A program made the position numbers and the translations under genes. A DNA stretch of 64,000 nucleotides from an uncultured Pseudomonadales bacterium (GTDB taxonomy: Bacteria; Pseudomonadota; Gammaproteobacteria; Pseudomonadales; Pseudohongiellaceae), in NCBI GenBank assembly GCA_938091935.1, contig CALKNV010000010.1, positions 1 to 64,000 on the forward strand, read 5' to 3'. The notes under the pieces were generated by a model that was not told the DNA's origin, did not search any database, and was given only the letters and a program-made list of their open reading frames with translations. Shown here piece after piece: positions 7,831 through 62,453 of the stretch (the stretch's first letter is position 1; every line of letters starts with the position of its first letter).

Positions 7831-9186
7831 CTAAGCGCTGTTCGCTGCGGGAAGACTGATCTCCGCGGCCTTTTCAGGCCAGGGTTTAGGGCCTTCCGCA
7901 GGCCGGACCTGTTCCCCTAATTGAATAGTTTCCTGAGCTAGCAATCTCTCCAACTCAGCCCTCGGCAGGCGCAAATCAATAAGATAGCGCCCTTCTTCGT
8001 CCATAGTCTCAGCAGTGACGAAGTTATTTTCGTATAACTGACTACGTAATTTCGCCTGTCCCGGTTGCAGAATAACATTCTCATTCACCAGGCCGTCGGC
8101 GAGTAACTCAGTGATCGCATTGTTCAACAGCTCGATGCCTTCACCAGATTGTGCTGATATCCAAACTCGAATTGGCTTGCCGACATCGTTTCTTTGGACC
8201 CGAGGCGCCATGCCGGGGATCGCGTCAATCTTGTTGATCACTTCGAGCCGCAGCACTTTATCCGCGCCTATTTCAGAGAGCACCGATTCTACCTCTGTCT
8301 TGAACTCTTCGTGGGCCTCATTGGCCCCATCAATCACGTGCAGCAGCAGATTGGCCGATGCAGTCTCTTCAAGAGTGGCGCGAAACGCTTCCACCAGGCC
8401 ATGGGGCAGATGACTGATAAAGCCAACGGTATCGGCGATAATCGCCTGCCCAAAATTCGGTAAATCAATACGACGCAAAGTCGAATCCAGTGTGGCAAAA
8501 AGCTGATCAGCTGCGTAGGTCTTGGCATCGGTCAAGCGATTGAACAAGGTGGATTTTCCAGCATTGGTGTATCCAACCAGCGACACGGTGGGTATTTCGG
8601 CGCGCTTGCGCGAACGTCTGCCCTGCTCCCGTTGACCTCGCACCTTATCAAGGCTCTTGTTGATTGCCTTGATTCGCTGTCGAATCATACGCTGATCCAG
8701 TTCCAGCTGCGTCTCACCTGCACCGCGCATACCGATACCACCTTTTTGCCGATCAAGGTGAGTCCAACCTCGTTTCAGGCGCGAACTCAGATGTTGCAGC
8801 TGCGCGAGCTCAACCTGCAGCTTACCCTCATGACTGCGAGCCCGCTGCGCGAAAATATCCAGAATCAGCCCGGTCCTGTCCAGCACGCGGCACTCTAAGT
8901 ATTTTTCGAGATTACGTTCCTGACTTGGTGTCAAGGGATGGTTAAATAGCACTAGCTCAGCTTTGTGGGCATGCAGAACTGCTGCGATCTCTTCCAGCTT
9001 TCCACTACCAACAAAATAACTAGGGGAAGGTTGTCGACGCGTGCCAGTGATTAGCGCCACTGGCTTCACGCCTGCAGATAAGGCTAATTCTTCGAACTCT
9101 GATGGGTCATCTCGTTCAGTATCAGACTCAATGGTCAGATGAACAAGAATCGTGTTTTCGCCAGAATCTGGCCTGTCAAAAAACAA
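7831..9186 (-). CDS. hflX: HflX, ribosome-associated GTPase
   Basis: HflX is a GTPase that binds the 50S subunit and splits stalled or hibernating ribosomes after stress. The 451-residue protein has the N-terminal HflX domain ending in the glycine-rich signature KGGIGMRGAGETQLE, then the G domain: G1 GYTNAGKST, G3 DTVGF, G4 NKID. The start is TTG, supported by GAGG six bases upstream and by the family-typical opening FFDRPDSGE. It follows hfq by 12 bases, the classic hfq-hflX arrangement. Confidence 0.97.
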   Translation of the reverse strand: MFFDRPDSGENTILVHLTIESDTERDDPSEFEELALSAGVKPVALITGTRRQPSPSYFVGSGKLEEIAAVLHAHKAELVLFNHPLTPSQERNLEKYLECRVLDRTGLILDIFAQRARSHEGKLQVELAQLQHLSSRLKRGWTHLDRQKGGIGMRGAGETQLELDQRMIRQRIKAINKSLDKVRGQREQGRRSRKRAEIPTVSLVGYTNAGKSTLFNRLTDAKTYAADQLFATLDSTLRRIDLPNFGQAIIADTVGFISHLPHGLVEAFRATLEETASANLLLHVIDGANEAHEEFKTEVESVLSEIGADKVLRLEVINKIDAIPGMAPRVQRNDVGKPIRVWISAQSGEGIELLNNAITELLADGLVNENVILQPGQAKLRSQLYENNFVTAETMDEEGRYLIDLRLPRAELERLLAQETIQLGEQVRPAEGPKPWPEKAAEISLPAANSA

Positions 9187-9198
9187 TCAAAACCTCAA

Positions 9199-9468
9199 TT
9201 AGGAATTCCCAGGTTCGCCGGCGCCTTCGTCGCCGCCATCAGCCTGACCCTGCATCGGTACCTTCACCATGCGCGCAGGAACGACCGTTGAAATGGCGTG
9301 CTTGTAGACCATCTGGCTCACTGCGTTTTTCAGCAGGATGACGAACTGGTCGAAAGATTCGATCTGGCCTTGTAGTTTAATACCGCTCACCAGATATATA
9401 GACACCGGTATGCGTTCTTTACGCAACACATTCAAGAAGGGGTCTTGTAGGGTATGCCCTTTGGACAT
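9199..9468 (-). CDS. hfq: RNA chaperone Hfq
   Basis: Hfq is the hexameric Sm-like protein that pairs small RNAs with mRNAs. The 89-residue product has Sm1 ([20 protein letters not shown]) and Sm2 with [10 protein letters not shown], and an acidic, glycine-rich tail (GGDEGAGE). The ATG at 9468 is preceded by a good AGGAG; the frame stays open 24 codons further upstream, but those codons are not part of Hfq. The very short tail differs from the long tail of enteric Hfq. Lies between miaA and hflX. Confidence 0.98.
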
Positions 9469-9545
9469 TGCTTTTCTCCTTAGCTTTAAAAAACGAGAAT
9501 CCCGGCGTGAACTTGCCGAACTCGCATGGTGCCGGCTCAATACTC

Positions 9546-10514
9546 CTATATTGAGACTGACTCCAGGTAATTCAAGACGTTATCGATGGATTTGGCGGAA
9601 GGCTCGCCCAATTGCTGCAAGTTTGGCCAACTGCGCAACCAGGTGGTTTGCCGCTTCGCGAGCTGTCTGGTGGCAATGATACTCTTTTCGACCATAGCAT
9701 CATAGTCCAATTCACCGTCCAAATATTGCCAAACCTGCCTGTAACCTACTGATTTAATTGAAGGAAGCTGCAGGTTAAGCTCCTCACGGTCATGTAGGCC
9801 TTGCACTTCTTCAACCAGCCCGCTGGTAAGCATGCCTCGGAATCGCGCCGCAATCCTTTCATGTAGTACGGTTCGGTCTGCCGCTTGGATCGCCATGAAG
9901 TGCAATGAGCAGGGTAAATCCGCGGCAGTTTTCGCCGATTCAGCCGCGTGATGAGCTGACAGAGATTTGCCCGTCAGTCGATAAACCTCCAGAGCCCGCT
10001 GCAATCGCTGCGGATCATTACGATGGATGCGCGCCGCTGACTGGGGATCAACACTAGCGAGTTCAGCATGCACGCCCTCCCAGCCCAGATTCGCAGCCAA
10101 CTCTTCGATTTCGCGCCTAATCCCAGGATCTGCATTGGGCATATCAGCCAGACCATCTCTAAGAACCTTAAAATAGAGCATGGTGCCGCCTACCAGCAGC
10201 GGCGTCTTTCCTGCATCCACCGCTATCTGCATGACCCTGATGGCATCGTCGCGAAAATCAGCAGCGGAGTAGGCCTGGGACGGGTCCATAATATCCATCA
10301 GCTGGTGAGGGTACTGCGCAAGAGTCGCGGCGTCTGGCTTGCCGGTGCCGATGTCCATGCCCCGATAGATCTGTGCCGAATCCACGTTGATAAGGCTGAC
10401 TGGTAATCTATCTGCCAGTTCCAGCGCCAATTGGGTTTTGCCGATAGCAGTAGGGCCCAGCAGGCATATTGCTGCAGGTTTTTGCGCCTTGGAACTAGAA
10501 GCCGGGCTACTCAC
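9546..10514 (-). CDS. miaA: tRNA dimethylallyltransferase
   Basis: MiaA transfers a dimethylallyl group to A37 of tRNAs that read codons starting with U. The P-loop GPTAIGKT (about 19-26), the [13 protein letters not shown] segment with catalytic Asp and Gln/Arg contacts, and [14 protein letters not shown] near residue 255 are all present; the length (322) is normal. It begins with GTG; AAGGGG four bases upstream supports this. It sits between mutL and hfq, the usual order. Confidence 0.97.
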
Positions 10515-10538
10515 TGATCCCCTTATCTGCAGTTGCAG

Positions 10539-12377
10539 CTACTGCCCACGTAGAAAGAGCTTATCAAGCTCGTTCAGACTCTGATAAACCCATGTTGGCC
10601 GTCCATGATTGCACTGACCCGAGCGCTCCGTGGCTTCCATATCCCGCAATAGAGAATTCATCTCGGGGATTGTCAGATGTCGATTAGCGCGGACAGAACC
10701 ATGACAGGCCATGGTAGAAAGCAGCTCATCGTGGTGCGCCTGAATACGCTCACTGCTGCCATACTCTAGAACATCTGAGAGCACATCGCGCACCAGTTGC
10801 TCGACATTAGAATCCTTGAGCAGGGTTGGCACCTGGCGCACTACAATAGATTCCTGCGCGACTCGCTCCAACTCTATGCCAAGACCCAGTAACGTTTCGC
10901 GCTGCTCTTCAGCACAGCCCGCTTCAGTCTGGCTTACAGCAATCGAGACTGGCACCAACAGGGGCTGCATTTTTAACTGCTCGTTCAATGAAGCTGCTTT
11001 CATGCGCTCGTAGGTGATGCGTTCATGTGCTGCATGCATATCAACTACTATCAGACCATCTTTGTTCTGCGCGAGAATATAGATACCGTGGAGCTGCGCG
11101 ATTGCATAACCCAAAGGTGGAATTTCTTCGTCTGCTTCATAGAGCTTGGCCAGTGAGTCAAGCTGCGTCCTCGGCTGTGCTGGCGGCTGGTAGTACTGTC
11201 CACGATCAGTGCCGCGAGAATATTCGCTCAGTTGATGCACACTGCTTGACTCGCTGAGGGTAAGAGGCTTCTGTGACTCCATCTGATAAAAGTCATCGGT
11301 AGCGCCTGCAAGGGGCTGATTCGCTGCCGCCTCAGCGGCGTCAGCACTGGCTGCGATGTGGTCTTCTGGCCGCACCTCGGCCAGCGCTTTATGCAGCGCA
11401 CTGAATAGAAAATCATGCACCAGACGACTATCCCTAAATCTGACCTCGTGCTTGGTTGGATGCACATTGACATCAACCGCAGCTGGCGCAAGTTCCAGGT
11501 ATAACACATAGGCGGGATGCCGCCCGTGAAACAGAACATCGCGATAGGCCTGCTTGATAGCGTGCGCCACCAGCTTGTCACGAATAATTCGGCCATTCAC
11601 GTAGAAGTACTGCAGGTCAGCCTGACTGCGGGAAAAGGTAGGCAGGCTGACCCAACCCCAAAGCCGCAAACCGGCTCTCTCCATGTCCACGAACACAGAA
11701 TTCTCTACAAAGGCTGGCCCGCAGACCAGGCCCACGCGTCGCTGCTTCTCAAAATCACTGCGCGCAGTTTGAAGTTGATGCACGGTGCGCTGGTTGTGGT
11801 TGAGGGTGAACTGCACGTCGAAGCGACTCAAGGCCAGCCGCTTTACTGTTTCTTCAATGCGACCGAATTCAGTTTTTTCTGTACGTAAAAACTTCCTGCG
11901 CGCCGGTGTGTTGAAGAACAGGTCTCTAACCTCCACCGTAGTTCCCTCGGGATGGGAGATCGGTGTCACCGCCGCTTCCATCTCCTGACCTTCAACCTGA
12001 ACCTGCCATGCCAGCCCATCGCTTGCATCAGCAGCCAAGGACTGCAGGCTCAGGCGGGAAACTGAACTGATACTGGCCAGAGCTTCACCACGAAAACCAA
12101 GACTGCCAATGCTTTCAAGGTCCGCCAGTTCCTTGATCTTACTGGTGGCGTGTCGGCTCAACGCCAGGGCCAGATCTTCCTTCTGAATCCCCGTGCCATT
12201 GTCTCGTACGCGAATCAGCTTGACTCCACCCTGCTCGACATCAATATCGAGGCGAGTTGCACCGGAATCGAGACTGTTTTCCAACAGCTCTTTCACCACT
12301 GACGCGGGGCGCTCAACGACTTCACCGGCAGCAATCTGATTAGCGAGGCGCTGACTGAGTAGATTAATTCGATGCAT
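10539..12377 (-). CDS. mutL: DNA mismatch repair protein MutL, endonuclease-type motifs
   Basis: MutL links mismatch recognition by MutS to strand incision. The N-terminal GHL ATPase motifs are intact: [20 protein letters not shown] and [11 protein letters not shown]. The C-terminal dimerisation domain carries [12 protein letters not shown], close to the DQHA(X)2E(X)4E metal site of nicking MutL proteins, and later ACHGSVRA and CNHGRP. This suggests a MutH-independent enzyme. The ATG at 12377 (AGGG upstream) is preferred over one nine codons earlier because [14 protein letters not shown] aligns with the usual N-terminus; this gives 612 residues. A variable linker lies at about 340-420. Confidence 0.97.
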
Positions 12378-12445
12378 AAACTGTGCCCTGACTCGGGCCG
12401 TCATTGTAGCACTATCCCAAGGGCAAAATGCTGGCTGGATTGGCT

Positions 12446-13966
12446 TCAGAGCGAGGGTATTTTCAGGACCTGACCAACCATAATGCGGTCGTTGCTCAGC
12501 CTGTTGGCGGCGCGCAGTTCGGCAACGCTAATTCGATACAACTGCGCGATCTCGGACAGGGTCTCGCCTCTGCTGATTGTATGCTCTGATGCCGGGATGG
12601 GAGCAGCACCAGGCAAACTCAACACCTGGCCCACTTGAATGGTATTGCTCTGTAAGCTGTTGCTGGCTTTGAGTTGTGCCAGGCTCAGACCGAAACGTTC
12701 AGCAATCTCTGACAGGCTGTCGCCGCGCTTGACGGTATAGGAACCCGGCGTAATGCCATTGGCTTTCTGCCAGGCGACGAGGGTGCCTTCGGGTGGCGTC
12801 TCGTAAAAATAGTTCATCACGCCTTGAGCAATTGCAGCCGCCATGCGCTGCTGGAATCCGCTGGTGTTAAGGCGCTGCGCCTCCTCGGGATTTGTCAGAT
12901 AGCCAGTCTCGATTAGAATCGACGGAATGTCTGGTGAGTTCAGCACCTGCAGTGAGGCTTGCTGTACCTTGTCCTTTCGAATGCGGGTGATGCCATCCAG
13001 GCTCTCCAGAATCCGGGTACCTGCAATCAAGCTTTGCTCCATACTCCAGGCCATCTGCAGCGACACCAAGGTGAGCGCAACATCGTCATCAAAGTTACCG
13101 ATGGCAAGATCACCCCCGACTCCACCCAGCAAGTCCGAACTGTTCTCCTTTTGCGTGACCCGCGCCGAGTTTTCCCGGTCAGCTCGATCGCCAGACAAGG
13201 CATAAACAGTTACGCCTCTTGCTCTGCTATTGCGATACCAATCTGCATGGATTGCCACAAAGAGATCGGCGCGCGACTGGCGCGCGATTTCCGGGCGCCG
13301 CTTGAGCTCGACGTAGTAATCCCCTTCCCTGATCATGACCGGCTTGTAGCCCGGCATACTTTGCAATCGATTAAACAAGGCCCGTGAGATAGCAAGGGTG
13401 ATGTTCTTTTCTTTCAGGCGGCCGTCGTAGCCAATCGACCCGGGATCTTCGCCACCGTGCCCGGCTGAAATGGCAACCACGATTTCGCGTCGGCTGTCTG
13501 ATTGCGGTGCAGGCCGATTGCCAGCGGTGAGCGCTGCGTTGGGGCGCGGTTCCTTATCATACAAGTCAACAACCAGTCGGTTTCCAAATTCACTATTGGG
13601 CGCAAGCGTAAAACTGGAAGGATCCACCGCGGTCTCGAGGTCCAGCACGATGCGAAGTGTGTCGTCGTCCCGCTCCCCAGAGCGAATTGCCCGAATCGGG
13701 CTGCTGGTGAAATCGAGCCCATTGAAGCCTTGGCTGGTGGAGGAAGAATCAATATCGATGACCAGCCGGTCCGGATTATCCAGCGAGAACAACGTGTAAT
13801 CCACGGCTGCACTGAGGTCAAACACCAGTCGCGTGTGGTCTGGTGCGCGCCACATACGCACATCCTGAACTTCCGCGGCTTGAAGGCGGCTAATCTGGCT
13901 CAGCAGGAGCAGGAAAACTGTCAATCTTGTGGCTGTACTCAGGGACATTTGCAGCTTGCTTCTCAC
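12446..13966 (-). CDS. amiB: N-acetylmuramoyl-L-alanine amidase with AMIN and two LysM domains
   Basis: A periplasmic amidase that cleaves the stem peptide from septal peptidoglycan during cell separation. A signal peptide (hydrophobic [15 protein letters not shown]) precedes an AMIN domain (about 30-135) that directs it to the division site, an Amidase_3 zinc domain (about 165-385) with [15 protein letters not shown] and AIHAD as metal-site segments, and two LysM repeats (about 412-455 and 462-505). Both LysM repeats start with a (V/I)(K/S)RG(D/E)(S/T)LSEIA pattern. The listed start is GTG; an ATG six codons later is possible. It lies between tsaE and mutL as expected. Confidence 0.95.
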
Positions 13967-14058
13967 ACCAAATGCATTTCACATAGAAAGCCTGCAATGC
14001 CTATTTTAGCCCAGGCTCGGACCGGAGTCCTCGTTGTCTAATAGTTTCGGCGGGATTG

Positions 14059-14568
14059 TCACAATCTTGCGGCAATCCGCACGCCTTTCGCCGTGTGGGT
14101 TTGACAGCTGATTTCACGTCCCGTTCCAGTGCCGCTCAGGCTAATACTCAGATCGGGAGCAGGAATCAGACCCCGGCCTCGTTCTGCCCATTCCAAGAGG
14201 CAAATATTCTCTTGCTGAAAATAGTCGTCAATTCCCAGGTACTGCACTTCTTCGGGCTCAGCCAGACGATACAAGTCGAAGTGATAGATCTTGCAGAGCG
14301 AGAACTCGTAGGGCTCCACCAGGGTATACGTAGGGCTCTTTACTGCCCCATAAAATCCGAACCCGCGCAGGAAACCACGGGTGAGAGTGGTCTTGCCCGC
14401 TCCCAGATCTCCTAGCAAGTAGATCACTGCGCCCATTGTCCTGCAACCGGGCACGCCAGACTTCGTCGGGGCATCATCGGGGTTCTGGAAAGTCGCCCGC
14501 GCGAGCGCAGCGCCAAAATCCATGGTGTCCTCTTCATCTTTGAGAGTGAACTGTCTTGAAGTTGACAT
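14059..14568 (-). CDS. tsaE: tRNA threonylcarbamoyladenosine synthesis ATPase TsaE
   Basis: TsaE is the ATPase that drives turnover of the TsaB-TsaD complex, which makes t6A37 on ANN-decoding tRNAs. Walker A GDLGAGKTT and the KSPTYTLVEPY segment are typical. The N-terminus TLKDEEDTMDFG aligns with the family, so I keep the ATG at 14568 although a later ATG at 14523 has a better-looking AGAGGA. The P-loop is preceded by a longer linker than in E. coli (169 residues in total). It follows nnr by 12 bases and is probably co-transcribed. Confidence 0.95.
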   Translation of the reverse strand: MSTSRQFTLKDEEDTMDFGAALARATFQNPDDAPTKSGVPGCRTMGAVIYLLGDLGAGKTTLTRGFLRGFGFYGAVKSPTYTLVEPYEFSLCKIYHFDLYRLAEPEEVQYLGIDDYFQQENICLLEWAERGRGLIPAPDLSISLSGTGTGREISCQTHTAKGVRIAARL

Positions 14569-14580
14569 GTGGGCAGCGGG

Positions 14581-16137
14581 CTAAAGATCTGGGTTCAAGA
14601 GTTGACGGATCAGCAGCAGCAGATCAGTGGCTAGCATGCCCCGCTGACCGCTCGCGGCAGCGGCAAGGTCCGCCGCTTCACCATGGACGCAGACTGCACA
14701 TTGTAGTGCCAGGTCATTCGGCAAACCCTGGGCGACCAATGCAGCGATAACACCAGCAAGCACATCACCCATCCCACCGCTGGCCATGCCGGCGTTACCT
14801 TCATTACACAAGTAAGTCGTGTCTGGGGTGAATGCACTGCGAATCAATGAACCACTGCCTTTGAGCAGGCAAGTACCTCCCCACTTCTGCTGCATTGCTG
14901 CTATCGCTGCAAATCGATCTGCTTTTATCAAGTCCAGGCTGGTATCAAGCAGTCTCGCCGCCTCACCGGGATGCGGGGTTAGTATCCAGGTCTCCCTTTT
15001 AAGCCCGGTCTGTCCATTGTCCCTGTCAGCCAACAGGTTCAATCCGTCCGCATCGATGATCATGGGAATTTGTTTGGCCATCTGCGTTGCCAGACTGCGC
15101 TGCAAGAGATCCTCGCCCCAGCGACCGCGACCGAGCCCTGGGCCCACAACAATCACCGTGGCTTTGGCCAGAAGTGCAGCCAAGTCGATGCCATGATCCT
15201 CGGTACCTGCGACCATGAGCTCTGGCCTGCGCGCAAGCATACCGGGCCGATGTTCAGACCGAGTAATCACTGATACAAGGCCTGCACCACTGCGCTGCGC
15301 CGCCTCCGCGGCCATCAAAGCCGCACCGCCATAACCACGGTCGCCACCAACCACCACCACATGGCCAAAAGCGCCTTTGTGGGCAGCGGGGGCACGGGGC
15401 TTGATAGAGTCCCGAACTGAATTTATATCGATGCGTTTGACACCAGGTTTGGCTGCATCTGCGTGGAAATAAACTTCGGAAGGCAACTCCAGGTCACTGA
15501 AAAATAGTTTGCCGAGATAGTCAGGCGCGGAGCCTGTCAGCAGACCCTGCTTCATGCCAATGAAAGTCACGGTAATGTCTGCGTCAACCGCGCAGCCCAG
15601 CGGCTGACCTGTGTTGGCATGCAGCCCTGAAGGAATGTCTACCGCCACTACTGGATTGTGGCTGGCGTTTATGAGGGAGATTGCGGCGGCATAATCCCCA
15701 GTCACCTCTCGATCAAGCCCTGTACCCAGCAACGCATCAACCAATACCGTGGGGCTTTCGTCTTCCGGCTGCTGGTGATAATCAGTGAACGCGACCAGCT
15801 GCACATCTCCGTCCCGGGCCATAGCAAAGGCCTTGGCGGCATCTCCACTTAATCGATCGGGAGATGAGAGATACACGATTTCACTCTGCAGACCTTGCTC
15901 GGCTGCGAGCGCGGCGATCACATAACCATCTCCCGCGTTGTTGCCGGCGCCTGCAAACACCCGCAATCGCCTGGTCTCAGGCCAATGCTCCAAAAGGGCA
16001 GCAAAGCAGGCCCGACCGGCCCGCTGCATCAGGCTAAAGCCCTCGATGCCAAACGTGTCGATCGCGAGTCGGTCAAGTTGTTGCACTGCAGCTGCCTGAT
16101 ACAGGTCGCGGGGCAGTCGAGAGGAATATTCAGCCAT
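14581..16137 (-). CDS. nnr: Bifunctional NAD(P)H-hydrate epimerase / ADP-dependent dehydratase
   Basis: This enzyme repairs damaged, hydrated NAD(P)H. The N-terminal half (about 1-215) is the YjeF_N epimerase, with GAGNNAGDGYV as its phosphate-binding loop and VDALLGTGL. The C-terminal half (about 235-510) is the ADP-dependent dehydratase of the ribokinase-like fold, with GDRGYGGAALMA and the catalytic NAGMASGGMGDVLAG. Length 518 is normal. It is the first gene of the long minus-strand cluster; the queG gene often found beside it is absent, and a marR gene lies 41 bases upstream on the same strand. Confidence 0.96.
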   Translation of the reverse strand: MAEYSSRLPRDLYQAAAVQQLDRLAIDTFGIEGFSLMQRAGRACFAALLEHWPETRRLRVFAGAGNNAGDGYVIAALAAEQGLQSEIVYLSSPDRLSGDAAKAFAMARDGDVQLVAFTDYHQQPEDESPTVLVDALLGTGLDREVTGDYAAAISLINASHNPVVAVDIPSGLHANTGQPLGCAVDADITVTFIGMKQGLLTGSAPDYLGKLFFSDLELPSEVYFHADAAKPGVKRIDINSVRDSIKPRAPAAHKGAFGHVVVVGGDRGYGGAALMAAEAAQRSGAGLVSVITRSEHRPGMLARRPELMVAGTEDHGIDLAALLAKATVIVVGPGLGRGRWGEDLLQRSLATQMAKQIPMIIDADGLNLLADRDNGQTGLKRETWILTPHPGEAARLLDTSLDLIKADRFAAIAAMQQKWGGTCLLKGSGSLIRSAFTPDTTYLCNEGNAGMASGGMGDVLAGVIAALVAQGLPNDLALQCAVCVHGEAADLAAAASGQRGMLATDLLLLIRQLLNPDL

Positions 16138-51035: not shown

Positions 51036-51470
51036 GTTTGCCTCCAGCGGTGTTTTTATTATCGGAAAGCAGATTTTGCAGTTTGAGGTATAAACACTAC
51101 TCCTTTACATCATGTTTTTGAAGAGTCAGGTATCGTGAATTGAATGGAATCAGCGCGTTGTTCGAACAGGCTGCTGCGCCAACCAAGAAGCGCAGCGCTT
51201 GCGGAACAAAGGCTCGGAGACCATCCGCATTTGCTTTGTGGTGAGACCAACCCATCGAATTGCCCGCTATGTGTAGTCCTCAGATTCGAGCAGGGTCTCT
51301 ACTTGATGACGTTTAGTTTTGTAGCTATAAATTACATAGAATATGGTGCAAAAATCGAGATCCTAGAGTTGGACTAATCTGACTCAGACGTACTACTTTA
51401 AGGGTGTCTGATAGTGTGGGTGGCATACGACTGTGCCAGCCCAACTTTGGGATATAAGGAACCTGAGGAA
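51036..51470. other. Intergenic region at the left border of a probable insert
   Basis: 435 bases between the exported-protein gene and the ATG at 51471. No convincing gene; the first part should hold the promoter of the minus-strand gene. The open frame of the next gene begins upstream at a GTG at 51414, but those codons are not protein-like compared with the family. Confidence 0.4.
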
Positions 51471-52787
51471 ATGAAAGTACGCGCTGACCGCAACAAGAAG
51501 GACAAAACTAAATCCGCCGTCCAGTCCCACCCGCAAAGGGAGAAGGGGAGGACTGGCACCTTCCAGTTGGAAGACAACCGCCCGGAATCCGAAGAGCAAA
51601 GGAGGCTGCAAGACCTTGCCAACGAGGGTCAGGAGGGGCAACCGCTCTCACACCAAGCAGTTTCTTCCGGGGACCCCTCACGGTCTCTGCAGTTCAAGGA
51701 AGTGGCAGCCAACGAATCGAGTGCGATCAATCCCGCGTCTGTAGCTCAATTGTACAAGGCCATCGATTTAGATGCCTCGCAAAACTGGGAGGAAGTGAAG
51801 GAGGCGTTCACATCCATTAAGCCGACATTGATTGAAGAAGGGGAACTTGGGAAGGAGCATTACGTGATGAAATACGTGGAGGGCCCTCCTGTGTCGAGCA
51901 AGCTCAATGTCTCTGAAGGAGGTAACCTGGCCATCAACGCGGACGGCGGATCTCAGCATACGGTGTTTTTCCTGGCAGCAGGGACATTAGCGCAATCAAA
52001 CAAGGATCTCGAAGACGCTAATGGCGACTTTAGACTGACGCCGACGGGCATCGCCGTTGTCGTCAATAACCACCCTCAACCAGATGCAAAGAAGCAACTA
52101 CTGCAGGTCAAGGCCACCCCAACGGAGGACAAGGGGGAAGACTGGGCGAAGGATTTGGATACGAAGTGCAACGTCTACTTCAAGAACATAACCAAGGCGC
52201 ACTCCGGATTCGAGGAAGTTTTCAGTACCACTGTCGACGAAAGCGACGATGGCCAGATCAGCGAAGAGCGACGGCAGCAGATAGATGCCACGCTGGCTGA
52301 CATGACGCTGAAAGCTGGTGATGCCTTTGAGATCAAGGCCTTTGGTACAGACAGTCCTGGATTTGGTTGGAATGAACATTACGCAGGAATCGTCGCTGTT
52401 GACAACTCGGATCAAGTGACACTCGAAAACTTCAACAGGGACAGTGAGTTTGGGGAAGCGGCGATTGAAGCAGCGACACAAAAGCTGGGGAAAACCGGAC
52501 AACAGATTGACAAGGAAATCAAGGACCTGCGGACAGAGTTAAAGTCAAAGTGGTTTTGGCAGACTTCAGAGAAGACACGCCTCAACAATGCCATCAAGGA
52601 CATGCAGGTATTGCAGCAGCAATGGAATACCATCATGAGCAAGAGCAAAAGGGAGGACGTGGATACCAAGCATTTCAAAATGTATGGACCTGCGTCGAAG
52701 GGGCAGTCTTTCCTCGATATGTGGAGAGGCCAAATGGAGAAGAAGCAAAGTAAGCTAAGTACCGCTAAGGCAAAAAGAGGCGAGTAG
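51471..52787 (+). CDS. Protein resembling contractile-injection-linked (DUF4157-type) effectors or toxins
   Basis: A 438-residue protein without signal peptide. The first 50 residues are basic and contain FQLEDNRPESEEQRRLQDLA, which recalls the FVDNRPEAxAQRKLQ leader found on many DUF4157/eCIS-linked proteins, mostly in Bacteroidota. The C-terminal half has HYAGIVAVDNSDQVTLENFNR and KMYGPASKGQSFLDMW, the His-x-AGIVA...TLENF...MYGP...SF pattern I recall from C-terminal domains of the same group. No DUF4157 metallo-motif HExxH is present. I prefer the ATG at 51471 (AAGGA upstream) over the GTG 19 codons earlier. Foreign-looking lysine/glutamate-rich composition. Function unknown. Confidence 0.6.
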   Translation: MKVRADRNKKDKTKSAVQSHPQREKGRTGTFQLEDNRPESEEQRRLQDLANEGQEGQPLSHQAVSSGDPSRSLQFKEVAANESSAINPASVAQLYKAIDLDASQNWEEVKEAFTSIKPTLIEEGELGKEHYVMKYVEGPPVSSKLNVSEGGNLAINADGGSQHTVFFLAAGTLAQSNKDLEDANGDFRLTPTGIAVVVNNHPQPDAKKQLLQVKATPTEDKGEDWAKDLDTKCNVYFKNITKAHSGFEEVFSTTVDESDDGQISEERRQQIDATLADMTLKAGDAFEIKAFGTDSPGFGWNEHYAGIVAVDNSDQVTLENFNRDSEFGEAAIEAATQKLGKTGQQIDKEIKDLRTELKSKWFWQTSEKTRLNNAIKDMQVLQQQWNTIMSKSKREDVDTKHFKMYGPASKGQSFLDMWRGQMEKKQSKLSTAKAKRGE

Positions 52788-58312: not shown

Positions 58313-58393
58313 TGCCGTTCCCGATTCAAAAAAAATGTGCTGATATTAAAGAGATGTCACGCTGCTGATGGTGATGCCGATAAGAATCTGGAT

Positions 58394-58843
58394 ATGTCAG
58401 CTCTCAACCGCGCGTTAAAATATGGTGTTTGCGCCACAATTGCCACCCTGATCAACCTGTCGACCCAGGAACTTGCTATCAGGGTCTACAGCGGTCCCTT
58501 AGACATTTATGTTGCCCTGCTGCTGGGCACTGCCACCGGCTTGGTAAGCAAGTACACCCTTGATAAGCGCTATATCTTCGCCTATACCACCGAATCGCAC
58601 CTGCATAACCTGAACAAGTTCGTCGCTTATACGCTCACCGGCGGCTTTACTACCGCGATGTTCTGGGGGCTGGAACTTGGCTTCGAGTACTGGTTTGGTG
58701 GCAAAATCGCGCGCTATACAGGCGCCGTGATCGGATTGACCATTGGATATGTTGTAAAGTATCGGCTGGATAAACATCTGGTGTTTGTCGGCGCAGCTGA
58801 TTCGGCAAGCGACGGCTTCAGCAGCCCAACTAAAGAAACTTGA
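58394..58843 (+). CDS. GtrA-family membrane protein
   Basis: A 149-residue protein with four membrane segments typical of GtrA: MSALNRALKYGVCATIATLIN, the ALLLGTATGLVSKYTLDKRYIF region, KFVAYTLTGGFTTAMFWG and AVIGLTIGYVVKYRLDKHLVF. Conserved Y-x-LDK is seen twice. GtrA proteins move or handle polyprenyl-phosphate sugars; the mycobacterial Rv3789 lies by dprE1. I take the ATG at 58394; an upstream GTG at 58337 is possible. It starts the dprE1 run and overlaps nothing. Confidence 0.88.
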   Translation: MSALNRALKYGVCATIATLINLSTQELAIRVYSGPLDIYVALLLGTATGLVSKYTLDKRYIFAYTTESHLHNLNKFVAYTLTGGFTTAMFWGLELGFEYWFGGKIARYTGAVIGLTIGYVVKYRLDKHLVFVGAADSASDGFSSPTKET

Positions 58844-58905
58844 TCAAAAGCTAAACAGCCTGCAATCACAAGGCAACCAATTTACCAAGAGCGAAGAAAC
58901 AACTG

Positions 58906-60243
58906 ATGCTTCTCACCGGCTGGGGTCGTTACCCAACGGTCACTTCACGAGTGACTGCACCAGGCAATGTCGATGCCCTGACCAAGGAGCTGCGCGCGCA
59001 CCCTCGCAGCATGCGCCTCATTCCTCGAGGTGCAGGCCGCAGCTATGGAGACAGCGCACTGGCCGAGCAGGTGATAAGCAGCCGCTTCCTGGATAACTTC
59101 ATCGCGCTGGATGCTGAAAACCTGAGCATAAGCTGCGGTGCCGGGGTAAGCCTCGCTGAAATTCTGCGGCTGTGTGTACCCCAGGGGCTGTTCCCGCCGG
59201 TGTTGCCGGGCACAAAGCATGTCAGCATAGGTGGCGCAATTGCTGCAGACATCCACGGCAAGAATCACCATGTTGATGGCACATTCTGTGATCACATTGA
59301 ATCTGTTTCCCTGGTGCTGGCAAGCGGTGAGCTAGTGCACTGTTCTCGAACCGAAAACAGTGGCCTGTTTCATGCCACCTGTGGTGGCATGGGGCTCACG
59401 GGCATAATCGTTGAAGCCAGACTAAAGCTGACAAAGGTTCCAGGTATCTCAATTAATACCGAGTCCATGGCTGCAGCTAATCTTGAGGAAAGCCTTGCGC
59501 TGTTGAAAGAACACAATGAAAAGAAATACGTGGTGGCCTGGGTCGATTGCCTTGCGCGTGGCGCGGCGCTCGGGCGCGGCATCATTCACTGTGGCGAGCA
59601 CAGCGGTACTGGCGAGCTTCGACACCGGGAAAGCAGCAGCATTGGCGTGCCGTTCACCACACCGGGTTTCCTGCTCAACCGCGCCACCATGGCTACCTTT
59701 AACACTCTCTACTTCCATCGTCACTCGCGGGCAGCGGGTGCGCGGCAGCAGCACTACGACAAGTTTTTCTTCCCACTGGACAGCATCCGCAACTGGAATC
59801 GGCTTTACGGCAGCAAAGGCTTCATGCAATACCAGTTCGTGTTACCTGATGAAGCTGCTGAAAACGGCTTAACGGAGATACTTGAGGCTGTGAGTCGTGC
59901 TGGCAAGGGTTCATTCCTCGCCGTACTGAAACGATTCGGCGCAGCCAACCAGAACCTGTTGTCCTTCCCGCGGGCAGGACTCACCCTGACCCTGGACTTC
60001 AAGTATGAAACCAGCTTACTGCCGCTGCTGGATGAACTTGATGCCATGGTGTTGGCACATGGCGGTCGCATCTACCTGGCTAAAGATGCGCGTATGAGCG
60101 AAGCAGTATTCAAACAAAGCTACCCCAATTGGGAGGCGTTTAAGGCCATCAAGGACCGGGTTGATCCCGACGGCCTATTTGCGTCGATGCAATCGAATCG
60201 ACTTGGGTTAAGCTGTGCCGACGTGGGATCATCAACAACATGA
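58906..60243 (+). CDS. dprE1: Polyprenylphosphoryl-beta-D-ribose oxidase, DprE1-like
   Basis: A 445-residue FAD-dependent oxidase of the vanillyl-alcohol-oxidase fold. FAD contacts: PRGAGRSYGDSAL, GTKHVSIGGAIAADIHGKNHH and GTFCDHIESV. The last part, KRFGAANQNLLSFPRAGL to AKDARMSEAVF and VDPDGLFAS, aligns well with my memory of mycobacterial DprE1. The residue at the position of Cys387 there is Thr362 here. Together with DprE2 it turns polyprenylphosphoryl-ribose into the arabinose form. The ATG at 58906 has a weak ribosome site. Stop overlaps the next start in ATGA. Confidence 0.9.
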   Translation: MLLTGWGRYPTVTSRVTAPGNVDALTKELRAHPRSMRLIPRGAGRSYGDSALAEQVISSRFLDNFIALDAENLSISCGAGVSLAEILRLCVPQGLFPPVLPGTKHVSIGGAIAADIHGKNHHVDGTFCDHIESVSLVLASGELVHCSRTENSGLFHATCGGMGLTGIIVEARLKLTKVPGISINTESMAAANLEESLALLKEHNEKKYVVAWVDCLARGAALGRGIIHCGEHSGTGELRHRESSSIGVPFTTPGFLLNRATMATFNTLYFHRHSRAAGARQQHYDKFFFPLDSIRNWNRLYGSKGFMQYQFVLPDEAAENGLTEILEAVSRAGKGSFLAVLKRFGAANQNLLSFPRAGLTLTLDFKYETSLLPLLDELDAMVLAHGGRIYLAKDARMSEAVFKQSYPNWEAFKAIKDRVDPDGLFASMQSNRLGLSCADVGSSTT

Positions 60244-60980
60244 ACATTCTCATCATCGGCGCCAACTCTGCGATTGCCAATGCCGTGGCGCGGCGCTATG
60301 CCGCCCGCCACTGCAGCCTGTTCCTGGTGGCGCGCAGCGAAAACCGCCTGCAGACCCAGCAGCAGGACCTCGAAGTACGGGGTGCGAAACGGGTGGGAAT
60401 CCATTTACTCGATGTGCTGGAGCACGATAAACACGCAGAGGCCGTTAAGGCAGCACTCGCTTTCTTCGATGGCGCGGATATCGATATCGCTCTGATCAGC
60501 CACGGCTCACTGCCGGACCAGGATGCCGCAGAGACAGACTTCGAATTGGCGAAACGGGAGATCGATGTGAACGGCCTGAGCGTGATCTCTCTACTTTCGC
60601 AACTCATTCCCCCTTTTAAAGCGCAGGGTCGGGGCATATTGGCGGTAGTCACCTCTGTAGCAGGCGATCGCGGACGCCAGCCGAATTTCATTTACGGTGC
60701 GGCCAAGTCCCTGGTGTCGACCTACCTGCAGGGCCTGCGCGGCAAACTGCTGCCGGACGGCATCCATGTCGTCGATATTCGCCCAGGTCTGGTAGATTCG
60801 CCAATGACGGCGCAGTTTGAGAAAGGTGCGCTTTGGTCCACGCCAGAACTGGTAGCTGCCAACATCGAGAAGGCCATCGATGGCAAGCGGCACACGGTCT
60901 ATGTACCCGGCTATTGGCGCATTATCATGGCCATCGTGTGTTCAATTCCAGAGGTGGTCTTCAAACGACTCAAGCTGTAA
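60240..60980 (+). CDS. dprE2: Short-chain dehydrogenase, DprE2-like 2'-keto reductase
   Basis: A 246-residue classical SDR. The NAD(P) motif is MNILIIGANSAIANAVARRY, close to the GAxSxIA of DprE2; Ser in VVTSVAGDRGR and YGAAK give the catalytic Ser-Tyr-Lys. A hydrophobic C-terminal tail (WRIIMAIVCSIPEVVFKRL) is as in DprE2 proteins and may touch the membrane. It reduces the keto intermediate made by DprE1. It is coupled to dprE1 by the ATGA overlap and to the UbiA gene by a 3-base gap. Confidence 0.9.
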   Translation: MNILIIGANSAIANAVARRYAARHCSLFLVARSENRLQTQQQDLEVRGAKRVGIHLLDVLEHDKHAEAVKAALAFFDGADIDIALISHGSLPDQDAAETDFELAKREIDVNGLSVISLLSQLIPPFKAQGRGILAVVTSVAGDRGRQPNFIYGAAKSLVSTYLQGLRGKLLPDGIHVVDIRPGLVDSPMTAQFEKGALWSTPELVAANIEKAIDGKRHTVYVPGYWRIIMAIVCSIPEVVFKRLKL

Positions 60981-60983
60981 ATC

Positions 60984-62453
60984 TTGACCGCTACTCCCGC
61001 ACAGCCCCAATCGAGTCTGCCGCTATATGTGGACCTTGATGGCACCCTGATAAAAACCGATCTGCTGCTGGAATCGCTGTTACTGCTGCTGAAGAAAAAT
61101 CCGCTCTACGTTTTCGTCCTTCCCATCTGGTTGATGGCAGGCAGAGCGAAGTTCAAGGCGAAAATTGCGGCGCGTGTTTCTGTCAGTTATGAGTTGCTGC
61201 CACTGAATTCTGAGTTCCTGAATTTCCTCCGCAGTGAAAAAACCAATGGGCGACATCTTGTCCTGATTTCCGCCTCCAATGAAAACATGGTGGCAGCATT
61301 AGCCCACAGCCTTGATCTGTTTGACAAGGTTGTAGGCAGCGATGATCACACTAACCTGAAGGCCGATGCCAAGCTGCAGCGCATCAACGAGATGAATGCC
61401 AATGCGCCGTTTGCCTACGCTGGCAATGCCAGCGCTGACCTCCCCATCTGGCAGCAGGCCCAGGAAATTATCCGGGTGAACTGCAGCAACAGCCTGGGGC
61501 AAGACCTGGCTGCCGACAAGCCACGGCAAGACTTCGATATGCCAGGCTCACGCTGGCCCTGGTTATGGCAGGCAATGCGCCCGCACCAGTGGCTGAAGAA
61601 TGGCTTGTTGTTCATTCCGCTTGTGCTGGCGCACCAGCTTGACGATATGCATGCCCTGCAGCATGCCGCTATTGGTTTCCTGTGTTTTTGCCTGCTTGCC
61701 TCTAGCGTCTACTTATTGAACGACCTGTTAGATCTGGAAGCTGATCGCCGTCACGCCAACAAACGTTCGCGACCCCTTGCAGCAGGGGCGCTGACCATCC
61801 AGCACGGCGCTGCCACCGCTGTGGTTCTGTTTACCGCAGCATTGCTGCTGGCGCACCTGCAGCCGCTGGCCTTTGTCGAGGCGCTGGGCACTTACTGGTT
61901 GCTTACCCTGTGCTACAGCTTTCTGCTGAAACGAGTCTTTCTTTTGGATCTGTTCAGTCTCGCCGCGCTTTACACCCTGCGCTTGATTGCCGGTGCCGGA
62001 GCAGTAAGCGTGACTGCCTCTCCCTGGTTACTGGCCTTCTCCATGGCTCTGTTCTTTGGTCTCGGAGCAGTCAAACGCGTTACTGAGTTAGTGAATAAGA
62101 ACGAAATTGAAACAGAGAGAATCGATAGCGAACAAGAAGCCAGCTTTACTTTGCCCGGCCGCGCCTATACAAGCAAACACCGTGAGTTACTTATCCTGAT
62201 GGGCACTACTGCCAGCGCAATTGCGGTGCTGGTTTTTCTGCTCTACATCTATGCGGAAGAAACCATGGCCCTGTATAGCTCGCCACTCATTCTCTGGCCA
62301 ATTGTAGGTTTACTTGGACTCATACTGTTTCGGGTCTGGCGCTTTGCGGTTACGGGGAAGATGCATGAAGATCCGGTACTGTTTGCCATCAGCGATCATC
62401 CCAGCCAGATTGCCACGGCATTGATTTTTTTGGTGCTGTGGCTAGCGATCTGA
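60984..62453 (+). CDS. HAD phosphatase-UbiA prenyltransferase fusion (DPPR-synthase-like)
   Basis: A 489-residue fusion. The N-terminal HAD domain (about 10-185) has all four motifs: YVDLDGTL, the Ser of LVLISAS, a Lys in NLKADAKL, and YAGNASADLP. The C-terminal UbiA domain (about 190-489) has eight or nine membrane segments, the Mg-diphosphate motif NDLLDLEADRRHANKRSRP and RLIAGAG with AVKRVTEL, as in phosphoribosyl-polyprenol-phosphate synthase (mycobacterial Rv3806c). UbiA would transfer phosphoribose from PRPP to polyprenyl phosphate and the HAD domain could remove the 5-phosphate. The start is TTG; no ATG fits. Confidence 0.88.
   Translation: MTATPAQPQSSLPLYVDLDGTLIKTDLLLESLLLLLKKNPLYVFVLPIWLMAGRAKFKAKIAARVSVSYELLPLNSEFLNFLRSEKTNGRHLVLISASNENMVAALAHSLDLFDKVVGSDDHTNLKADAKLQRINEMNANAPFAYAGNASADLPIWQQAQEIIRVNCSNSLGQDLAADKPRQDFDMPGSRWPWLWQAMRPHQWLKNGLLFIPLVLAHQLDDMHALQHAAIGFLCFCLLASSVYLLNDLLDLEADRRHANKRSRPLAAGALTIQHGAATAVVLFTAALLLAHLQPLAFVEALGTYWLLTLCYSFLLKRVFLLDLFSLAALYTLRLIAGAGAVSVTASPWLLAFSMALFFGLGAVKRVTELVNKNEIETERIDSEQEASFTLPGRAYTSKHRELLILMGTTASAIAVLVFLLYIYAEETMALYSSPLILWPIVGLLGLILFRVWRFAVTGKMHEDPVLFAISDHPSQIATALIFLVLWLAI

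Follow-up and report, generated by a model that had tools for sequence, protein, structure and literature searches.

The decaprenylphosphoryl-D-arabinose (DPA) pathway, which provides mycobacteria with D-arabinose for their cell wall, is known above all as a target of antituberculosis drugs, and related gene sets have been linked to D-arabinofuranose on Nod factors. The DNA analysed here, the first 64,000 nucleotides of contig CALKNV010000010.1 (C10) of an uncultured gammaproteobacterium of the order Pseudomonadales, family Pseudohongiellaceae, carries a four-gene cassette that resembles this pathway; the whole stretch is called the window, and its source is a 2.22-Mb metagenome-assembled genome (MAG) of 58% completeness. 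For Citrobacter youngae O1/O2 a three-component system for pentofuranose was described, in which the HAD and UbiA domain protein ORF15 was tested biochemically and the lipid-linked pentofuranose is used by a periplasmic glycosyltransferase of the GT-C type (Kelly et al., 2024; PMC11127046). The same paper reports DprE1/DprE2 homologues where arabinofuranose-containing glycans are known (PMC11127046). In P. paraeruginosa the transferase was reported to be TfpW, which is encoded in the pilA cassette and acts on pilin (PMC12369383, PMC11841053). As this type of cassette has already been described with Citrobacter ORF15 and in P. paraeruginosa, the locus belongs to a known kind. Neither its inheritance throughout this genus nor the unlinked AftB-like partner was found in the open-licence PMC literature, which is weak as evidence of absence. 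Judged from the sequences, we consider it likely that the four genes form a donor operon for lipid-linked D-arabinose with export by GtrA, and that the sugar is attached by GT-C enzymes encoded elsewhere, most likely, in this MAG, by an AftB-like protein.

The listing of open reading frames (ORFs) and the raw sequence contain at 58394-62453 four intact plus-strand ORFs. They encode GtrA, a DprE1-like protein, a DprE2-like protein and a HAD-UbiA fusion; two of the junctions are gaps, of 62 and 3 bases, and DprE1 and DprE2 overlap by ATGA, as a preliminary description of the window had stated. GtrA starts with ATG and an in-frame GTG is located upstream at 58337. The genes and domains, with flavin adenine dinucleotide abbreviated as FAD and short-chain dehydrogenase/reductase as SDR, are:

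58394..58843, plus strand, GtrA/DPMS-type small membrane protein (PF04138, NF037976)
58906..60243, plus strand, DprE1-like FAD oxidase, predicted to act in polyprenylphosphoryl-ribose 2'-oxidation (NF053785, PDB 4aut, motifs)
60240..60980, plus strand, DprE2-like SDR reductase (PRK07102, NF053786, PDB match to DprE2, YxxxK)
60984..62453, plus strand, HAD-UbiA fusion, whole gene with TTG start (PRK08238)
61032..61445, plus strand, HAD-phosphatase domain of the fusion, Pfam HAD residues 17-154 (PF12710, DLDGTL)
61563..62453, plus strand, UbiA-type polyprenyl-phosphate phosphoribosyltransferase domain of the fusion (PRK08238, PDB 8j8j, NDLLDLEAD, KRVTE)

The family labels given in the preliminary description agree with the profile, PDB and motif matches of all four proteins. 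GtrA is above the cut-offs of Pfam PF04138 (8.3e-08) and NCBIfam NF037976 (gtrA_1; 2.1e-46), and by analogy with Rv3789 it is presumed to be a translocator of lipid-linked pentose. The DprE1-like protein matches best the DprE1 model NF053785 (9.7e-125), is similar to solved mycobacterial DprE1 (PDB 4aut, 1.5e-82) and has the motifs DIHGKNHH (residue 115) and YLAKDAR (residue 390), both of which align with the solved enzyme. Its residue 362 is a threonine and is aligned with a cysteine of solved mycobacterial DprE1, which we take to be the covalent inhibitor site. For the DprE2-like protein PRK07102 ranks first (2.1e-84, above cut-off) and the DprE2 model NF053786 second (4.6e-51), the top PDB match is DprE2 (8.9e-27) and a YxxxK motif is found at residue 152. 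The two proteins do not reach the equivalog cut-offs (417 versus 500 bits for NF053785 and 174 versus 250 bits for NF053786) and are therefore named DprE1-like and DprE2-like; with DprE1 and DprE2 as nearest solved relatives, they have the character of the DprE1/DprE2 pair of a donor cassette. The HAD-UbiA fusion matches PRK08238 at 6.1e-163, above cut-off, followed by the decaprenylphosphoryl-5-phosphoribose (DPPR) synthase models at 6e-45, with haem O synthase (1.2e-07) and proteobacterial UbiA (7.1e-06) far behind. It is similar to the solved DPPR synthase (PDB 8j8j, 1.2e-21), and its UbiA domain motifs NDLLDLEAD (residue 246) and KRVTE (residue 364) agree with the conserved residues given for Citrobacter ORF15 (PMC11127046). 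PRK08238, 8j8j and these motifs together mark the UbiA-type phosphoribosyltransferase of a donor cassette. The HAD domain (PF12710 at 2.8e-08, above cut-off) carries DLDGTL at residue 17 and by analogy with ORF15 is presumed to be the polyprenyl-phosphate-ribose-5-phosphate phosphatase (PRP) module, which would supply the phosphatase of the cassette. Neither of the placements that had been named as refuting the reading was seen: by profile scores the DprE1 model ranks first for the FAD gene and the DprE2 model second, after PRK07102, for the SDR gene, and by profile scores and PDB matches the UbiA domain groups with decaprenyl-phosphate phosphoribosyltransferase and not with the ubiquinone or haem prenyltransferases. 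The same matches support the donor-cassette reading that had been proposed for the locus.

The preliminary description had seen no arabinosyltransferase within the window, and this holds as far as it was tested by a count of transmembrane (TM) segments and by two GT-C profiles built here, an AftB-like one and one for a protein of the lipopolysaccharide (LPS) core locus. Among the 53 window ORFs of at least 150 residues a simple hydropathy count predicts at least six TM segments in three, which are HAD-UbiA and two MMPL-family proteins, and neither profile has a match, a screen that could miss a GT-C enzyme outside both profiles with fewer predicted TM segments. The window ORF at 51414-52787 (457 residues) is without Pfam or NCBIfam match at 0.001. 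Multi-TM genes directly adjoin the cassette in several other phyla. Not counting HAD-UbiA, 17 stretches of the genus (about 15-20 kb) have no gene with at least six predicted TM segments at a distance of 2.6 kb or less from the cassette genes, and the nearest multi-TM genes are MMPL-like in nine of these stretches and unlabelled in two. The recurrent multi-TM genes upstream of the cassette were considered as GT-C enzymes and rejected, being MMPL by Pfam in L121, the one tested, and in both window proteins. In 80 DprE1 loci with 1048 called proteins, AftB-like genes near DprE1 were found only in L015, 66 bases after DprE2, and in L058, 770 bases from DprE1, and the LPS-core profile had no match among these proteins. 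Genome searches gave three GT-C candidates, an LPS-core protein, a PMT_2 protein and an AftB-like protein; the search for GT-C arabinosyltransferases beyond the window that had been proposed thus led to an AftB-like candidate in the same MAG:

C21:6320-7759, contig C21 of the same MAG, AftB-like GT-C protein of 479 residues, adjoining an acyltransferase-3 gene

This candidate was picked via the L015 protein, which itself lies beside DprE2 and thereby introduces a selection effect, and genus sequences alone were used for the order-wide test described below. The AftB-like profile (A2) contains 10 of 11 labelled homologues, with a 77-residue piece omitted. Solved AftB is the sole PDB match at E <= 1 both for the single sequence (3.3e-06) and for the 10-row profile (9dlf, 7e-13). 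The top NCBIfam model is terminal beta-(1->2)-arabinofuranosyltransferase (1.9e-09); its equivalog cut-off is not reached (36 versus 1050 bits), and therefore the protein is classed as AftB-like and not as AftB. In the cavity of AftB the residues D62, T91, E172, R221, T274 and R372 were described, with D62 as proposed nucleophile (PMC12041299). The profile alignment pairs D62, T91, E172 and R221 with D37, T66, E137 and R171, which are invariant in the 10 family rows, and T274 with the invariant serine S223, while R372 is outside the aligned part of the profile. The family keeps the DD motif, so that AftB homology is accompanied by the motif and by donor-binding residues. In a subclade the gene abuts HAD-UbiA: as called, the two overlap in G018 and G033, they are about 40 bases or less apart in G022, and in G078 a single gene separates them. 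On these sequence grounds the AftB-like protein is plausible as the best transferase candidate in this MAG. Further traces in the genus are a short or interrupted match in G060 and, in G030 (L302, G030:C14, about 2773-2919), a 49-residue N-terminal remnant just upstream of HAD-UbiA, apparently due to a deletion. At L294 (G078:C1:550000-569900, 8297-15400) more membrane proteins, one with a PMT_2 match, are encoded beside the AftB-like gene and HAD-UbiA, which suggests that this locus holds several GT-C enzymes.

The co-occurrence of these genes was observed in an order sample of 293 genomes, each of which was searched for DprE1, the AftB-like profile, the LPS-core profile and the PMT_2 protein, giving 56 (E <= 1e-50), 22, 37 and 17 carriers, respectively. 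DprE1 is present in 20 of the 22 AftB-like carriers versus 56/293 overall (Fisher p 3e-14, in a test that treats genomes related by descent as independent), in 18/20 carriers outside the own family and, counted by genus, in 14/16 genera (p 1.3e-07). The AftB-like carriers lacking DprE1 are G087, with matches in two contigs, and G090, with one 42-residue match (4.2e-04). The carrier counts may be too low, as scoring in many genomes from outside the genus was limited to no more than four or five first-look candidates per genome. The AftB-like search was repeated on 20 carrier stretches and gave a match in 19 of them. No DprE1 was called near the AftB-like gene in 20 stretches from 18 carriers, and one DprE2-like SDR (27%) was found in the stretch L367 around an AftB-like gene. 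Both the AftB-like and the PMT_2 protein are missing from 25 of the 56 genomes with DprE1.

Within the genus DprE1 was found at E <= 1e-50 in 33 of 37 genomes searched, the four without match being G001, G008, G019 and G031 with completeness of 65-85%, and HAD-UbiA at E <= 1e-10 in 55/61 genomes, a few of these matches being partial. Of 30 loci given, 28 are from the genus, and in all 28 DprE1 and DprE2 are adjacent. An inositol-monophosphatase-type (IMPase) gene lies beside the pair in 27 of these, the remaining stretch being cut, and HAD-UbiA lies inside the short stretch in 25. GtrA was recovered by tblastn in 19 of the 27 genus loci L083-L109, fewer than the other cassette genes. In a FastTree phylogeny of DprE1 with 146 rows, the 28 genus-labelled rows (window and L083-L109) fall in a 39-row set with support 99, the other 11 rows of which are three more genus loci, seven unnamed gammaproteobacteria and one Pseudohongiella. 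From these sequence comparisons the genus appears to have inherited the cassette vertically. The DprE pair and HAD-UbiA occupy separate loci in G018, G022, G030 and G033, and in G018, G022 and G033 the pair remains beside the phosphatase gene, away from HAD-UbiA. Six DprE1 rows labelled g23, from the same family as the genus, form a distant clade in the tree. The six g23 genomes (L266-L271) carry a separate set of HAD-UbiA, DprE1 and DprE2, followed by a membrane protein of 568-612 residues that is likely a linked transferase; the L266 copy, the one searched, is without Pfam or NCBIfam match.

As to substrates, direction of transport, partner transferase and surface location of D-arabinofuranose, we infer the following from the observed families, motifs, gene order, inheritance and co-occurrence. 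The operon would make D-arabinofuranose linked to polyprenyl, probably undecaprenyl, phosphate, GtrA would help to carry the lipid-linked product to the periplasmic face, and GT-C enzymes encoded elsewhere would attach the sugar there. The GT-C enzyme most likely to do so in this MAG would be the AftB-like C21 protein, with a PMT_2-type GT-C as second candidate. Several points weigh against this reading. Besides the missed DprE1 and DprE2 cut-offs and the assumption of independence in Fisher's test, the AftB-like protein matches LA_3751, an uncharacterised family of glycosyltransferases, almost equally well (4.4e-09), and the single-sequence alignment is without the E137-E172 pairing, which was found only in the profile alignment. 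A full-length AftB-like gene is present in only 8/61 genus genomes, though nearly all have the cassette, so that its product cannot serve as transferase throughout the genus. In G031 (76% complete) the AftB-like gene is present without DprE1 or HAD-UbiA. Outside the genus the AftB-like matches are weak, with 4.7e-19 as the best, and the match in G185 (72 residues, 8.2e-05) was not reproduced at E <= 0.01 in its stretch.

An alternative that we regard as possible, though it is not the one we favor, is that the donor is mainly used by the PMT_2 GT-C on a core envelope component, with the AftB-like enzyme as an accessory extra. This protein, mostly 640-690 residues in size, has a match at E <= 2.7e-14 in 56/61 genus genomes (orthology was not checked individually), and a feoB-like gene adjoins its gene in the five genus stretches viewed (L205-L208, L210). 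With the G023 protein as query (E <= 1e-10), 15 of the 17 carriers in the order sample have DprE1 (p 3e-10), as do 7/9 carriers outside the family (p 7e-05); three genomes labelled g24, all without DprE1, gave no PMT_2 match, and a Ppx-like gene is near PMT_2 in 2/3 g23 genomes viewed, as in the genus. However, only 9/17 order matches are strong (E <= 1e-96), eight of these being from one family, the remaining 8/17 are partial and 25-29% identical, and the pattern is little more than the history of one family. Moreover, the protein was not found in the window's own MAG (58% complete) and has no relevant similarity to a solved structure. The g23 genomes have PMT_2, but their DprE1 belongs to the distant clade and is linked to a membrane protein of its own, and for this reason they were dropped as independent support for the co-occurrence. 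It is improbable that the acceptor is the LPS core and that a GT-C-like protein of the waa/hld locus adds arabinose to lipid A-core. The protein in question is:

C1:114535-116037 of the same MAG, LPS-core GT-C-like protein of 501 residues, encoded in the waa/hld locus, where its gene overlaps that of a lipid A acyltransferase

It is GT-C-like by topology and motif, being multi-TM with a family NDD motif in which N34 and D36 are invariant, and has no Pfam family at 0.001. It has a match in 58/61 genus genomes, the profile (A1) being built from 30 loci of these 58 genomes, and its gene has Kdo transferase, HldE, heptosyltransferase and carbamoyltransferase genes as neighbours. In the whole order sample 13/37 carriers have DprE1 (p 0.01), but this excess is due to the own family. 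Outside it 4/25 carriers have DprE1 versus 47/281 (p 0.63); with this co-occurrence at chance the protein was rejected as the transferase, and it served as a control for the association of the AftB-like protein with DprE1. In addition, the gene is present without DprE1 in three g24 genomes with a listed completeness of 100%, and the protein has no match to any arabinosyltransferase. At the locus in this MAG (L134, G000:C1:105000-124900, 8601-12813) a carbamoyltransferase gene adjoins the overlapping genes for the GT-C-like protein and the lipid A acyltransferase.

A use of the donor by a TfpW-like enzyme that glycosylates type IV pilin is suggested by P. paraeruginosa, for which D-arabinofuranose donor genes and TfpW were reported together (PMC12369383, PMC11841053). 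We hold this to be unlikely here: a leader-motif scan flagged no pilin-like ORF in 20 stretches around the AftB-like genes of relatives, while no search of this genome was aimed at TfpW or pilins. It is very improbable that the cassette makes another lipid-linked pentose, for instance ribofuranose only, and that the DprE-like pair acts on something else. Such a product would fit the scores below the equivalog cut-offs of the DprE1 and DprE2 models and the separate loci of the DprE pair and HAD-UbiA in G018, G022, G030 and G033, but both DprE partners are adjacent in 28/28 genus loci, and among solved structures it is DprE1 and DprE2 that match them best.

The reading we favor, a donor operon for lipid-linked D-arabinose served by GT-C enzymes encoded elsewhere, extends the pathway to an apparently inherited trait of one gammaproteobacterial genus and provides with the AftB-like protein a testable transferase candidate where none had been seen before. 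The dispersed AftB-like genes that co-occur with DprE1 across the order offer a route to arabinosyltransferases away from donor genes. More tentatively, a mycobacterium-like DPA donor system that is core to the genus and vertically inherited may feed two or more GT-C arabinosyltransferases that are not linked to each other. One would be a core enzyme of the PMT_2 type directed at a conserved envelope glycan, and another an accessory enzyme, AftB-like and possibly retaining, with an acyltransferase as its partner. If this is true, the donor is a shared resource for unlinked transferases and not part of a single modification locus.

In comparison with the known systems, the fusion resembles Citrobacter ORF15 in having the HAD (PRP) domain N-terminal to the UbiA-type polyprenyl-phosphate phosphoribosyltransferase. 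Where Citrobacter has an SDR epimerase and a MATE flippase, DprE1/DprE2 and GtrA, respectively, are encoded here, and the cassette lacks an adjoining GT-C gene (PMC11127046). The locus shares with P. paraeruginosa PSPA7_6245-6251 the presence of D-arabinofuranose donor genes in gammaproteobacteria, but the donor set of P. paraeruginosa was reported to lie in a genomic island, whereas inheritance is apparently vertical here (PMC12369383, PMC11841053). The phosphoribosyltransferase of P. paraeruginosa is described as having no fused PRP domain, and the P. syringae B728a candidate as having one at the C-terminus, while here it is fused at the N-terminus (PMC11127046). With the mycobacterial DPA pathway (Rv3806c, Rv3807c, DprE1, DprE2, Rv3789) the cassette shares by homology the same reaction series, the HAD domain replacing the separate and unrelated mycobacterial phosphatase Rv3807c (PMC11127046). 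There is no evidence here for arabinan, which is made by mycobacteria. The candidate transferase is shorter than mycobacterial AftB (479 versus 669 residues in the 9dlf chain) and resembles it in its matching active-site residues (PMC12041299).

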